Source: Oscillospiraceae bacterium | Lineage (GTDB): Bacteria; Bacillota; Clostridia; Oscillospirales; Ruminococcaceae | Direction: 5' to 3' | Assembly (NCBI GenBank): GCA_009777445.1 | Contig: WRLV01000011.1 | Span: 1-40,033 of the forward strand | Length of the DNA stretch: 40,033 nucleotides | Part shown: in pieces, positions 258 through 2,042 of the stretch | Layout: each line of letters begins with the position of its first letter | How positions within the stretch are numbered: position 1 is the stretch's first letter | Notes under the pieces: model-generated | The model's database searches: none | Seen by the model: only the letters and a program-made list of their open reading frames with translations | What the model was told of the DNA's origin: nothing | Made by a program: the position numbers and the translations under genes

Positions 258-286
258 TTGAAATAACCAAAAAAATGTAGTATAAT
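258..286 (+). promoter_or_regulatory. sense promoter of peptide module copy 1
   Basis: -35 TTGAAA (258-263), 17-base spacer, -10 TATAAT (281-286). It predicts a start near 292-294, just at the first leader hairpin. Copy 3 has the same promoter; copy 2 has lost the -35. Confidence 0.8.
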
Positions 287-292
287 GTAACT

Positions 293-373
293 ACCGGGGA
301 AACCCGGTCAGGGCAAGATTGAAAACGGCGTTGTGCCGGACGGTTGCGTTCACTTCCGAAAGGAGGTGTTTGT
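293..373 (+). promoter_or_regulatory. structured leader of peptide mRNA, with Shine-Dalgarno in a hairpin (copy 1)
   Basis: Three stem-loops can be drawn by eye. The first is ACCGGG-GAAA-CCCGGT at 293-308, with a GNRA tetraloop at the predicted 5' end. The second is CGGC-GTTGT-GCCG at 326-338. The third is CACTTCC-GAAA-GGAGGTG at 351-368, whose right arm is the Shine-Dalgarno itself, paired through seven base pairs (one G-U). Translation should therefore need opening of the hairpin, a hallmark of type I toxin mRNAs. The SD hairpin is identical in all three copies (1506-1523 and 1829-1846). In copy 3 the first hairpin has CTCGGT, which keeps pairing by G-U. Confidence 0.7.
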
Positions 374-451
374 ATGGAGATAGCTTATATTGTATCAATG
401 ACAGTTATCACTGTTGTGGCTATATTAGCAAATCGAAACACAAAAAAGTAA
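374..451 (+). CDS. 25-residue hydrophobic peptide, candidate type I toxin (copy 1)
   Basis: ATG 374 to TAA 449-451. The peptide starts MEIAYIVSMT, continues with a valine/isoleucine/alanine-rich stretch (residues 3-19) able to span a membrane once, and ends in a polar cationic tail NRNTKK. Small size, one membrane helix and a basic C-terminus are the known traits of type I toxins of the TxpA/BsrG, Fst and C. difficile CD2517.1 kinds. The SD (GGAGGTG) is perfect but lies in a hairpin. Compared with copy 3 the ORF has four base changes, three of them silent and one isoleucine/valine, so the peptide itself seems to be under selection. No sequence family is claimed; a holin-like (Hol_Tox) relationship is plausible because the leader resembles, from memory, those genes. 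Toxicity is inference. Confidence 0.75.
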   Translation: MEIAYIVSMTVITVVAILANRNTKK

Positions 452-523
452 CCGCCCTCGACCAAAGATAGCGGTTACTTAACTTGCAACTTTGGACGCA
501 ACCGTTTGAGGTTTTGCCCTGTT
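440..523 (-). ncRNA. predicted antisense RNA (antitoxin-like), copy 1
   Basis: A convergent promoter, -35 TTGACA (553-558), 17-base spacer, -10 TATTAT (530-535), predicts a start near 523. The shared hairpin at 446-480 would end it near 440, giving an RNA of about 85 bases. It would overlap the last codons and 3' end of the peptide mRNA, as RatA does txpA and SR4 does bsrG. The same promoter is intact in all three modules. Boundaries are predicted only. Confidence 0.6.
446..480. terminator. bidirectional terminator over the peptide stop codon (copy 1)
   Basis: A perfect 10-bp inverted repeat, AAGTAACCGC (446-455) with GCGGTTACTT (471-480), contains the TAA stop in its left arm. On the minus strand it is followed by six T residues, a good intrinsic terminator for the antisense RNA. 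On the plus strand the T-run is broken (TTAACTT), so sense termination may be leakier here than in copy 3. Confidence 0.75.
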
Positions 524-529
524 TTTATT

Positions 530-558
530 ATAATAACATATTTTTAAAATTTTGTCAA
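530..558 (-). promoter_or_regulatory. antisense promoter, copy 1
   Basis: On the minus strand a perfect -35 TTGACA, 17-base spacer and TATTAT -10, directed back toward the peptide gene. An alternative TATAAT lies 3 bases further on, with a 20-base spacer. It is closer to consensus than the sense promoter at the -35, suggesting antisense RNA in excess. Confidence 0.7.
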
Positions 559-576
559 GGGGTTTTTAAAAAAATG

Positions 577-675
577 TAGGGGACGGGCTTGCCCGTCCCG
601 ATGTTTTTGCCCGTCCCTAATTGTTTGTTAATCCGAATTGTGTTCTTGCGGGACGAACAAGCCCGTCCCCTACGT
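577..675. repeat. GGGACGGGC palindromic intergenic repeat cluster
   Basis: GGGACGGGC-TT-GCCCGTCCC (580-599) is a perfect 9-bp inverted repeat. A half copy TGCCCGTCCCTA follows (605-616), then GGGACGAACAAGCCCGTCCCC (about 651-671), flanked by GTAGG and CCTAC. A matching palindrome lies at 21079-21098. Such short elements are dispersed in many clostridial genomes. No coding capacity. Confidence 0.65.
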
Positions 676-696
676 TTTTCAAAAACCAATCAGAAC

Positions 697-1305
697 TTAC
701 TGCAAGAACCTCTCAATCTCGTTTTCGGACATGCCGCCTCGTTTAAACCTTTCAATGATTTCTTGCATGCATTCTTGTCTGCCTTTTTGTATGCCCCTTT
801 CCATGCCCTCTTGCCTACCCTTCTCAACAGCCGCCCTCTCACGCGCCCAATTATCCCATTCCATTTTATGGCGTGACTCGTAAACCAAACGCGTTTTCTC
901 GTCAGCGGACAGTTCCATAAGACGAACAACGGCTTTTTCAACTTGTGGATTTTGTTCTGCTAACATAGTGAATTCCTCCCTACTTTTGGCAGACAAAAAC
1001 TTAGTCCACCACCATAATTGCGTACCGTCATCGGCAGCAGGAATTTTCGGCAACTCAATCGTATGTATTTCTAACTTATCAGAAAACTCCGAACCTGTTT
1101 CGGGATTATACAGCGTATAACAATTGTGATAATTCTCGCTGTCATCTATAAAATTGTGGTTGGTAATTACTATGCTAATTACTTGTTTAATGTCAGAATG
1201 GTCATTACCCGATTTCATTTGTCCTGTAATCATTTTAGAAGTGTAATACAGAATGCGCTCGCGCAAAACCGGAGACGGTTCAACTTGAATTTCTATAATA
1301 TTATT
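697..1305 (-). pseudogene. internally deleted Rpn-like (PD-(D/E)XK) gene
   Basis: The frame is open from 1305 and the first in-frame start is TTG at 1266 (189 codons). Before that TTG the frame still codes IEIQVEPSPV, which fits the conserved 'histidine-isoleucine-glutamate-isoleucine-glutamine' strand of Rpn-family nucleases, followed by the family's ERILYYTSKMITGQ block. The C-terminus carries the glycine/arginine/glutamate-rich segments (KGRQEGMERGIQKGRQE) and the final EIERFLQ typical of the family. The N-terminal half, with the start codon and first acidic catalytic residues, is missing. A promoter lies immediately upstream (1303-1331), so it joins almost directly to the middle of the gene. 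It is probably non-functional as a nuclease, though a C-terminal fragment could be made from TTG 1266. The copy at 20299-20970 is cut at the same place. Confidence 0.7.
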
Positions 1306-1331
1306 TTATCACATTCGATTTTGAAAGTCAA
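1303..1331 (-). promoter_or_regulatory. promoter of the broken Rpn-like gene
   Basis: Minus strand: TTGACT (1326-1331), 17-base spacer, TAAAAT (1303-1308). The surrounding 45 bases closely match 21005-21050, in front of the second broken copy. Confidence 0.6.
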
Positions 1332-1411
1332 GTTTTTCAAAAGTTTTGTCAACCACTTTTCAAAAAACATTCAAAAAACCCCCACCCAACACCAAAGGCA
1401 TAGAGTAGAGA

Positions 1412-1441
1412 TTTTCATCTTTCAAAAAAATGTAGTATAAT
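1412..1441 (+). promoter_or_regulatory. damaged sense promoter, copy 2
   Basis: The -10 TATAAT (1436-1441) is intact, but the expected -35 is replaced by TTTTCA/TTTCAT (1412-1418), a weak match. The peptide gene of this copy is probably expressed less than those of copies 1 and 3. Confidence 0.5.
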
Positions 1442-1528
1442 GTAACTACCGGGGAAACCCGGTCAGGGCAAGATTGAAAACGGCGTTGTGCCGGACGGTT
1501 GCGTTCACTTCCGAAAGGAGGTGTTTGT

Positions 1529-1606
1529 ATGGAGATAGCTTACATTATATCCATGACAGTTGTTACTGTTGTAGCTATATTGGCAAATCGAAACACAAAA
1601 AAGTAA
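1529..1606 (+). CDS. 25-residue hydrophobic peptide, candidate type I toxin (copy 2)
   Basis: ATG 1529 to TAA 1604-1606. It differs from copy 1 by two residues (valine 7 and isoleucine 12 exchanged for isoleucine and valine); the other base changes are silent (TAC, TCC, GTA, TTG codons). The leader with its SD hairpin (1506-1523) is unchanged. Membrane segment and NRNTKK tail are as in copy 1. The upstream promoter lacks a good -35, so this may be a silenced copy that still makes antisense RNA. Confidence 0.7.
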   Translation: MEIAYIISMTVVTVVAILANRNTKK

Positions 1607-1681
1607 CCGCCCCACGCCCAAGTGTAGCGGTTACTATTTAACCACGCATTTGAGCGCAACCGTTTGAGGTTTTGCCCTGTT
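1596..1681 (-). ncRNA. predicted antisense RNA, copy 2
   Basis: Promoter on the minus strand: TTGACA (1711-1716), 17-base spacer, TATTAT (1688-1693). It predicts an RNA from about 1681 to about 1596, ending at the shared hairpin. The 5' part contains CAGGGCAAAACC and ACGGTTGCG, as in the other copies. Confidence 0.6.
1602..1635. terminator. bidirectional terminator, copy 2
   Basis: AGTAACCGC (1602-1610) pairs with GCGGTTACT (1627-1635). A run of A residues on the left gives T residues for the antisense transcript. On the right the sequence is TATTTAACC, a poor T-run. Confidence 0.7.
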
Positions 1682-1687
1682 TTTATT

Positions 1688-1716
1688 ATAATAACATATT
1701 TTTAAAATTTTGTCAA
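1688..1716 (-). promoter_or_regulatory. antisense promoter, copy 2
   Basis: TTGACA, 17 bases, TATTAT on the minus strand. Fully conserved with copies 1 and 3 although the facing sense promoter is damaged. Confidence 0.7.
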
Positions 1717-1735
1717 GTGTTTTTTCAAAAAACCC

Positions 1736-1764
1736 TTGAAATAACCAAAAAAATGTAGTATAAT
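1736..1764 (+). promoter_or_regulatory. sense promoter, copy 3
   Basis: TTGAAA (1736-1741), 17-base spacer, TATAAT (1759-1764), identical in layout to copy 1. Confidence 0.8.
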
Positions 1765-1851
1765 GTAACTACCGGGGAAACTCGGTCAGGACAAAATTGA
1801 AAACGGCGTTGTGCCGGACGGTTGCGTTCACTTCCGAAAGGAGGTGTTTGT

Positions 1852-1929
1852 ATGGAGATAGCTTATATTGTATCAATGACAGTTGTCACTGTCGTAGCTA
1901 TATTGGCAAATCGAAACACAAAAAAGTAA
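1852..1929 (+). CDS. 25-residue hydrophobic peptide, candidate type I toxin (copy 3)
   Basis: ATG 1852 to TAA 1927-1929. Same peptide as copy 1 except valine at residue 12. GTC, GTA and TTG codons replace GTT, GTG and TTA without changing the protein. The SD hairpin (1829-1846) is unchanged. The 5' hairpin (1771-1786) keeps pairing through a G-U pair, and the leader tag reads CAGGACAAAA instead of CAGGGCAAG. With an intact promoter and the longest terminator stem this looks the most complete of the three modules. Confidence 0.75.
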   Translation: MEIAYIVSMTVVTVVAILANRNTKK

Positions 1930-2007
1930 CCGCCCTCGTTCAAGATTAGCGGTTACTTTTTTTAACCAATAACTTTTGAGCGCAACCGTTTGAGGTTTTG
2001 CCCTGTT
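1918..2007 (-). ncRNA. predicted antisense RNA, copy 3
   Basis: Promoter on the minus strand: TTGACA (2037-2042), 17-base spacer, TATTAT (2014-2019). Predicted RNA from about 2007 to about 1918, ending at the shared hairpin. Confidence 0.6.
1921..1961. terminator. bidirectional terminator, copy 3
   Basis: A 13-bp inverted repeat, AAAAAGTAACCGC (1921-1933) with GCGGTTACTTTTT (1949-1961), ending in T runs on both strands. This is the strongest of the three. Confidence 0.8.
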
Positions 2008-2013
2008 TTTATT

Positions 2014-2042
2014 ATAATAACATATTTCAAAAGATTTGTCAA
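2014..2042 (-). promoter_or_regulatory. antisense promoter, copy 3
   Basis: TTGACA, 17 bases, TATTAT. It is the counterpart of 530-558 and 1688-1716. Confidence 0.7.

Follow-up and report, generated by a model that had tools for sequence, protein, structure and literature searches.

What do three near-identical short units close to the start of an Oscillospiraceae contig encode, given that each carries a small open reading frame (ORF) facing a promoter on the opposite strand? The contig is WRLV01000011.1 (C11 in our numbering), from a draft genome of 1.98 Mb in 91 contigs, and the window, that is, the whole stretch of DNA analyzed here, covers its positions 1 to 40,033. A preliminary description had proposed a type I toxin–antitoxin-like module. 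We consider it probable (about 0.6) that each unit is such a module, with a new 25-residue peptide of membrane type, and that its mRNA reads through a hairpin at the stop codon and is locked by pairing between its 5′ and 3′ regions. Judged from the sequence, our verdict is that the peptide family is new and its type I architecture a known one, with toxicity as a prediction.

The module is real. By repeat comparison, copy 1 spans 242–574, copy 2 1397–1732 and copy 3 1720–2058. These units of ~300 bp, with direct repeats of 239 and 84 nt, bear out the three 25-codon ORFs originally proposed (374–451, 1529–1606 and 1852–1929, all on the forward strand), although only copies 2 and 3 stand in tandem, copy 1 lying ~0.85 kb off. 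The translations, MEIAYIVSMTVITVVAILANRNTKK, MEIAYIISMTVVTVVAILANRNTKK and MEIAYIVSMTVVTVVAILANRNTKK, are near-identical hydrophobic peptides with a basic tail, the ORFs having Lys-Lys codons at the end. The whole genome contains nine module copies on seven contigs, one of them truncated by a contig end; seven share the window subtype (A), whereas the two on contigs C44 and C27 encode a second subtype (B), MEIAYVISITLISI(I/V)AIIAMFNIKK. Relatives were found in three of 394 genomes of the order, namely this one (nine copies), G025 (one) and G103 (two); two extra matches (E 0.001 and 0.01), which covered part of the model within longer frames, were left out of the count.

Copies 1 and 3 differ by three silent substitutions and one changed codon, exactly as first counted, and the loci L008 and L009 by eight silent substitutions and one changed codon. 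Between copy 1 and its G025 relative there are 10 silent substitutions and four changed codons, with nonsynonymous and synonymous rates (dN and dS) of 0.09 and 2.25, the latter near saturation. Even between the two subtypes, where 10–12 codons differ, dN (0.26–0.33) is still lower than dS (1.07–1.93). A dN/dS ratio near 1, which would speak against selection on the peptide, was looked for in the ORF pairs (dS was undefined in three of 45), and dN proved well below dS instead. By this codon pattern the peptide is under purifying selection, with mostly silent change within a subtype, and the frame is therefore a gene. Over the eight complete copies of this genome, the stop-codon stem was invariant (mean identity 1.00), followed by the leader (0.94), the antisense 5′ segment (0.87) and the ORF (0.83), with the hairpin loop (0.56) and the linker (0.51) varying most; for the six complete subtype-A copies only, the ORF reached 0.94 and the loop 0.57. 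We infer that the variable loop carries copy-specific recognition.

The same data bear on the idea of a dispersed non-coding repeat, resembling a miniature inverted-repeat transposable element, in which the ORF would be incidental. Nine copies on seven contigs would suit such an element, as would the presence of another short repeat, GTAGGGGACGGGC, 149 times in the genome. However, the purifying selection is codon-specific, the alignment of the copies shows conservation stopping near the two promoters, and the coding frame is retained in G025 and G103, which are members of another family. We find this reading scarcely credible, and dropped it because of the codon-level selection.

A promoter scan placed sense promoters, TTGAAA-17-TATAAT, at copies 1 (258–286, forward strand) and 3 (1736–1764, forward), each matching the sigma-70 consensus at 11 of 12 positions. 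The statement that each unit has a promoter holds to that extent; at copy 2 the usual −35 is missing, and scan and alignment leave a weak TTTTCA-18-TATAAT (1412–1441, forward). Behind all three copies lies an antisense promoter, TTGACA-17-TATTAT with an extended TG (530–558, 1688–1716 and 2014–2042, reverse strand), again matching at 11 of 12 positions, in keeping with the strong convergent promoter noted before. Positions 1–2200 contain 20 promoter-like sites, against 5.1 expected. A separate repeat, CCCCCACCCAACACCAAAGGCAT...GATTTTCA, flanks module copies (157–249, 1335–1427 and 2025–2117) and occupies the expected −35 region of copy 2.

The sense promoter leads into a leader whose Shine-Dalgarno sequence is contained in a local 7-bp hairpin, CACTTCC-GAAA-GGAGGTG (forward strand; 351–368 in copy 1, by sequence and fold, with the GAAA as its loop; 1506–1523 and 1829–1846 in copies 2 and 3, by sequence). 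The convergent promoter would give an RNA of ~90 nt ending at the stop-codon hairpin. For copy 1, promoter and fold place this antisense RNA at 436–524 on the reverse strand, with inferred ends; its predicted length, ~89–95 nt with the ends that we chose, agrees well with the ~85 bases estimated earlier. What one would look for in a type I toxin–antitoxin system is thus present as predicted signals: a promoter and a terminator for an overlapping antisense RNA, and a small hydrophobic peptide, basic at its end and under selection.

A hairpin with a stem of 8 bp has the stop codon, TAA, in its 5′ arm (448–478, 1603–1634 and 1926–1956 in copies 1, 2 and 3, respectively; copy 2 was placed by alignment). 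T-run counts on its two sides differ. On the antisense side there is a run of six T in eight of the nine copies of this genome, copy 1 included, because this run is the complement of the Lys codons. The longest sense run, in contrast, is 2–3 in seven copies (T2 in copy 1) and 7 in the other two (copy 3 and the copy on contig C76), while a T5 follows the far arm of the structure described below in eight of nine. In most copies of this genome the hairpin appears well suited to terminating mainly, or only, the antisense RNA, meaning that of the bidirectional terminator originally proposed the antisense half stands and the sense half is doubtful. Judging from these T-runs, the mRNA in most of these copies probably reads through the hairpin and can close on itself, and hence the picture of a shared terminator needs changing.

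A feature absent from the preliminary description is that the 5′ segment of each antisense RNA recurs in the leader of its own toxin mRNA. The copy 1 leader contains CAGGGCAAGATTGAAAACGG...CGGTTGCG, and the antisense RNA of this copy begins with CAGGGCAAAACCTCAAACGGTTGCG. Since the same segment is present on both RNAs, the leader of a read-through mRNA would find its pairing partner in the 3′ region of the same molecule. In copy 1 the 5′ arm of helix 1 (309–320) has its partner at 510–521, as indicated by fold, family alignment and RNAalifold, and that of helix 2 (340–350) at 495–505 in the family consensus, as indicated by family alignment and RNAalifold; the stretch with both 3′ arms (495–521) aligns as the complement of the antisense 5′ segment. 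By fold and alignment, the corresponding 5′ arms are at 1464–1475 and 1495–1505 in copy 2 (overall 1464–1505) and at 1787–1798 and 1818–1828 in copy 3 (1787–1828), with 3′ arms at 1653–1679 and 1979–2005, all on the forward strand.

When the copy 1 RNA 293–522 was folded end to end, we obtained −93.2 kcal/mol, as compared with −60.3 (standard deviation 4.9) in 200 shuffles (z −6.8), and with −61.7 kcal/mol for an RNA ending after the hairpin. Both helices form in single folds of copies 2 and 3. In an alignment of 11 family units, 98.5% of the cells of the 12-pair helix 1 and 100% of those of the 11-pair helix 2 are paired, and RNAalifold predicted both helices unguided. Eight pairs have changed on both sides over the whole structure, four of them in the two long-distance helices; shuffles gave 3.0 on average (none of 500 reached eight) and slid versions 0–3. 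Complementarity between the leader and the sequence immediately inside the antisense promoter is thus conserved and covarying, as in a lock of the hok or aapA kind.

A wider sample was collected with the sequence of the stop-codon hairpin as the search pattern. It matched 25 stretches of viral contigs, eight of 197 genomes of the order and at least 117 stretches of named genomes; the 80 titles listed were mostly Clostridia, with exceptions including Schleiferilactobacillus, Solobacterium and an Opitutales metagenome-assembled genome, and the sample is not a random one. From 161 distinct hairpin matches we removed 15 at contig edges and 55 with no ORF that both followed a Shine-Dalgarno sequence and ended in the stem. 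In the remaining 91, the stop position and the Lys-Lys end are consequences of how the matches were searched and filtered, and carry no weight as evidence. Removal of two with no antisense promoter found left 89, and clustering by DNA left 72 non-redundant modules; DNA was used because single-linkage clustering of the peptides merged nearly all of them. A broader hairpin-plus-promoter pattern, which hit two places in the genome under study, was not used. Cultured species that carry one of the 91 include Ruminococcus callidus ATCC 27760, [Ruminococcus] torques ATCC 27756 and Dorea phocaeensis. Among the 91, antisense promoters matching at 10 or more of 12 positions were present in 78 (2.5 in shuffles) and such sense promoters in 43 (2.9 in shuffles); the loose promoter finder with which the antisense RNAs were trimmed also succeeds in 49 of 91 shuffles.

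In the 72 modules, the local alignment score of a leader with its own antisense RNA was 24.7, against 15.5 with those of others and a maximum of 17.0 in 10,000 permutations; the own antisense RNA was the strict best for the leader in 30 modules and in the top tenth in 58. The predicted duplex between leader and downstream sense region was much more stable within a module (−41.9 kcal/mol) than after swapping (−28.4, z −24), and in full folds, 57 of 72 modules had 10 or more pairs between leader and 3′ region, as compared with 29–31 of 70–72 swapped combinations.

A leader T opposite an antisense C (T/C), or a leader G opposite an antisense A (G/A), leaves a G·U pair in the mRNA helix and is thus tolerated there; counting in alignments that scored at least 20, we found 159 differences between leader and antisense RNA in own pairs, 100 of which were of these tolerated kinds and eight the reverse. 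In own pairs T/C outnumbered C/T by 35 to 3, as compared with 104 to 75 for cross pairs (p 3e-5).

An independent check was provided by loci of Hol_Tox (PF16935), a family of putative holin-like toxins; these we gathered from 398 genomes of the phylum with the peptide profile as the sole criterion. Forty-seven genomes had a match at E ≤ 0.001, 43 over the cut-off, and 30 loci were taken; five were dropped, and the remaining 25 are unclustered and include several close relatives. Here too the leader-downstream duplex was module-specific (own −62.0, swapped −48.8, z −8.4), and T/C outnumbered C/T by 18 to 6 and G/A outnumbered A/G by 13 to 4. On the other hand, 77 of 118 differences were of other kinds, partly because these alignments include promoter stretches, and by local alignment score the own partner was the best of all in just four of the 25. 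Module-specific complementarity of the leader to sequence inside the antisense promoter is hence a property of the Hol_Tox-type RNA scaffold as well as of the window units. The modules of the wider sample, with the same hairpin and layout, include some with Hol_Tox peptides; the window peptide itself fails the Hol_Tox model.

Several observations weigh against a read-through, end-locked mRNA. Some concern the family and the window. In the family alignment there is no excess of pair types (22, versus 20.2 in shuffles; 82 of 500). The copy 1 fold has all 12 pairs of helix 1 and none of the 11 of helix 2, which it replaces by a shifted leader–3′ pairing (enforcing helix 2 costs 1.7 kcal/mol); helix 1 of copy 3 contains an A·C mismatch; and copy 2 is without the −35, TTGAA(A/T), that the other seven complete copies have, its TTTTCA with an 18-nt spacer being the best remaining match. 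Moreover, the Shine-Dalgarno hairpin forms in long and short folds alike, and the lock is therefore unnecessary to hide the Shine-Dalgarno sequence. Others concern the wider sample. The antisense-strand duplex is module-specific too (own −35.9, swapped −25.9, z −20; in the Hol_Tox loci own −54.2, swapped −44.6, z −7.4), because the segments are shared. The sense duplex is the more stable of the two in 61 of 72 own pairs, but likewise in 68% of cross pairs, although the own-minus-cross gap of this advantage, −3.5 kcal/mol, is significant (p 3e-6). The G/A excess over A/G (65 to 5 in own pairs) is also seen across modules (407 to 69, p 0.13), so that this second class is mostly a general consensus difference and no proof alone.

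The sense T-runs and the position of the T/C differences also count against read-through, and they belong to the reading with which it has mainly to be compared, in which the module is type I toxin–antitoxin-like, both RNAs end at the shared hairpin, and the repeated 5′ segment is kept to give both the same 5′ fold, serving as a stabilizer or as a site for an RNase or another protein instead of pairing the mRNA ends. The T7 in two of nine copies of this genome and sense runs of at least five T in 40 of the 72 collected modules imply that many mRNAs may end at the hairpin and never lock, the second figure being the most serious objection to a lock. In each of the three window copies the antisense 5′ segment also folds alone as a hairpin, and more T/C differences fall at positions paired within the antisense RNA itself (26) than at unpaired ones (9). 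A common 5′ fold, however, predicts no directional G·U bias, contrary to the contrast between own and cross pairs described above, and the bias is seen both where the antisense fold leaves positions unpaired (T/C versus C/T 9 to 2, small numbers) and where it pairs them (26 to 1); in addition, the sense T-run is weak in seven of nine own copies. We therefore judge termination of both RNAs at the hairpin to be unlikely, though deserving of serious attention.

Direct pairing between leader and antisense RNA is what a Fst/par-type arrangement would call for, with direct repeats making the two RNAs complementary outside the terminator. As in par of pAD1, which from excerpts of the source has convergent RNAs with a hairpin in the overlap and direct repeats (PMC7472228), the promoters here converge and a hairpin lies in the overlap. 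Unlike in par, the repeats are inverted, so that both RNAs carry the same segment, and predicted direct pairing is hardly module-specific (own −26.6, swapped −25.9, z −1.8), which argues against a par-like mechanism. We consider membership in this class very improbable, and dropped a direct leader–antisense interaction on account of that weak specificity.

Some of the closest published systems, cited here and below from excerpts of the respective papers, are found in Bacillus subtilis. The txpA and RatA genes are convergent with a 3′ overlap of ~75 nt and a 59-residue toxin (PMC4147584); txpA has a very strong Shine-Dalgarno sequence, its SL4 is cut by RNase III at nt 96–98 and 218–220, implying a long-range helix in the mRNA, and it decays by RNase III together with RatA (PMC3531473). 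The window units resemble this pair in the convergent layout with a predicted 3′ overlap, the strong Shine-Dalgarno sequence and the predicted long-range mRNA helix; they differ in peptide length and overlap, and the likeness is one of description, not of sequence. In bsrG/SR4 and bsrE/SR5, contact between the two RNAs is made at their 3′ ends, and the Shine-Dalgarno sequence is sequestered; SR4 binds loop first, its loop 3 touching the 3′ part of helix P1 of the bsrG mRNA (PMC6562991, PMC7430163). By analogy, P1 would be the counterpart of the end-to-end helix.

Sizes agree less well. The bsrG RNA and SR4 measure 294 and 180 nt, with peptides of 38 and 30 residues for bsrG and bsrE (PMC7430163), and B. 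subtilis type I toxins in general have 28–60 residues (review, PMC6563280), whereas we predict 25 residues and RNAs of ~230 and ~90 nt. The bsrG/SR4 and bsrE/SR5 systems, too, are likened by description only, and not by sequence. Hence, the agreement with TxpA/RatA and BsrG/SR4 that was initially asserted is loose in size; as to arrangement, the gene layout fits a 3′ overlap of this type, with predicted RNA ends. In Clostridioides difficile, CD2517.1/RCd8, CD0956.2/RCd10 and related systems are convergent overlapping pairs whose peptides have a hydrophobic N-terminus and a Lys-rich C-terminus; there are several pairs per genome, mostly with cognate-specific antitoxins (PMC6563280). They share with the window units the host class (Clostridia), convergence, peptide character and multiplicity, but their peptides are longer (34–59 residues). 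Finally, in aapA/IsoA of Helicobacter and in hok/sok a 5′–3′ long-distance lock keeps the toxin mRNA inactive until its 3′ end is shortened (PMC6733600); those systems belong to other bacteria and have other peptides, and here a lock in the real mRNA, as well as its removal, is a prediction.

These parallels suggest how the locked-mRNA module might work. In most copies, the mRNA would read past the stop-codon hairpin and end at the T-tract beyond the far arm, folding into a stable, closed 5′–3′ structure from which little peptide is translated. Being perfectly complementary to the final ~90 nt of such an mRNA, the antisense RNA would make first contact at the copy-variable hairpin loop, displace the wobble-rich lock and form a duplex for RNase III. 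The peptide would be made only from mRNA that escapes, either shortened or after loss of the antisense RNA, and would then act on the membrane. While the steps are documented for txpA/RatA, SR4/bsrG and aapA, they are extended to this module by analogy. The original type I toxin–antitoxin-like assignment agrees with the convergent promoters, the peptide and its selection, the sequestered Shine-Dalgarno sequence and the Hol_Tox scaffold; the shared terminator is the part that does not fit.

The peptide, for its part, belongs to a family missed by the profile libraries searched. The profile search called for in the preliminary description gave no match for the three window peptides in Pfam, NCBIfam or PHROGs, Hol_Tox (cut-off 23.3 bits) included, and no Hol_Tox match at E ≤ 0.1 anywhere in this genome. 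The two subtype-B peptides and the G025 peptide had only matches at E 0.16–1.4 (PsbN, an ilv leader peptide and phrog_3947), which we took as chance; the Pfam match to PsbN, at E 1.4, was for one of these three relatives. PADLOC returned nothing for six peptides. At gathering scores, Rfam contained nothing relevant for the unit and only a tRNA elsewhere; at E 5, positions 1–2200 gave 15 matches, all under gathering scores, including weak ones to Enterococcus small RNAs on the antisense strand. Among phages, two DNA records matched over just 51 bases of the antisense promoter region, and the one inspected contained tRNA genes and hypothetical proteins but no module; phage protein searches and plasmid searches by DNA and by protein gave no match, and 56 stretches of viral contigs fit a peptide pattern, none of them confirmed. 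The open-access titles and abstract openings listed contained no description of the 25-residue peptide or survey of the leader/antisense repeat, which is weak evidence since subscription literature lies mostly outside. "Undescribed" thus applies to the peptide in the libraries searched, and not to the kind of system, which is well known.

A membrane peptide need not be a toxin, and the antisense RNA could instead set the dose of a non-toxic regulator or small subunit. Shortness, conservation and multiple copies are features that such a function would allow, and the toxicity of the peptide is only predicted. Still, the same scaffold bears Hol_Tox peptides: of ten module peptides picked for Pfam, three were over the Hol_Tox cut-off, one was below it (E 0.0017) and six were unmatched. 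Moreover, the peptides of the wider sample are diverse, varying widely in sequence as type I toxins do. A non-toxic role consequently appears improbable to us. By eye, the peptides of L101, L106, L115, L126, L142 and L199 have strand-like basic ends (e.g., MKKELILLLRILKKKGLLSSVTVTKTMIIIRIKK) and are not plain membrane helices; they are possibly a second type on the same scaffold.

Tentatively, and at somewhat less than even odds, we propose that one RNA chassis (a 5′–3′ wobble-locked mRNA, a Shine-Dalgarno hairpin, a stop codon within a terminator acting mainly on the antisense RNA, and a convergent promoter) is common to many unrelated-looking hydrophobic peptides across Bacillota, that the peptides exchange or diverge freely, and that paralogues, the nine of this genome included, diversify mainly the hairpin loop and the linker for recognition of their own mRNA. 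Modules of the same layout with different peptides occur in the genus relatives G023 and G001. Our results suggest that searches built on the RNA scaffold recover type I toxin–antitoxin-like loci overlooked by peptide searches. The directional wobble pattern would also carry over to many gut Clostridia a mechanism so far described for a handful of probed mRNAs, with the prediction that their toxin mRNAs continue beyond the stop-codon hairpin.

As to the surroundings, a gene of the PD-(D/E)XK (PDDEXK_2) transposase type lies between copies 1 and 2 (700–1266, reverse strand), and a second PDDEXK_2 piece adjoins the module copy on contig C40. Directly beside copy 1, an inverted repeat with 37-nt arms (GGGGACGGGC...) occupies 564–685. 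Its core, GTAGGGGACGGGC, has 80 of its genomic occurrences in the forward and 69 in the reverse orientation, frequently as inverted pairs among the matches listed, and is an abundant small dispersed palindromic element.

Of the six copies outside the window, the three whose neighbours were scanned lie near type II toxin–antitoxin genes, a count made with no chance control: L002 (contig C40) near PIN and HicB-like genes, L004 (contig C73) near a PemK/MazF-like gene, and L009 (contig C27) near BrnT, RelB and a YafQ piece. Among relatives in the genus and order, many of the loci L012–L021 and L023–L036 match the unit at the promoter stretch only (A-tract, CCCTTGA, TATAAT), which suggests an extended promoter style common to this group.

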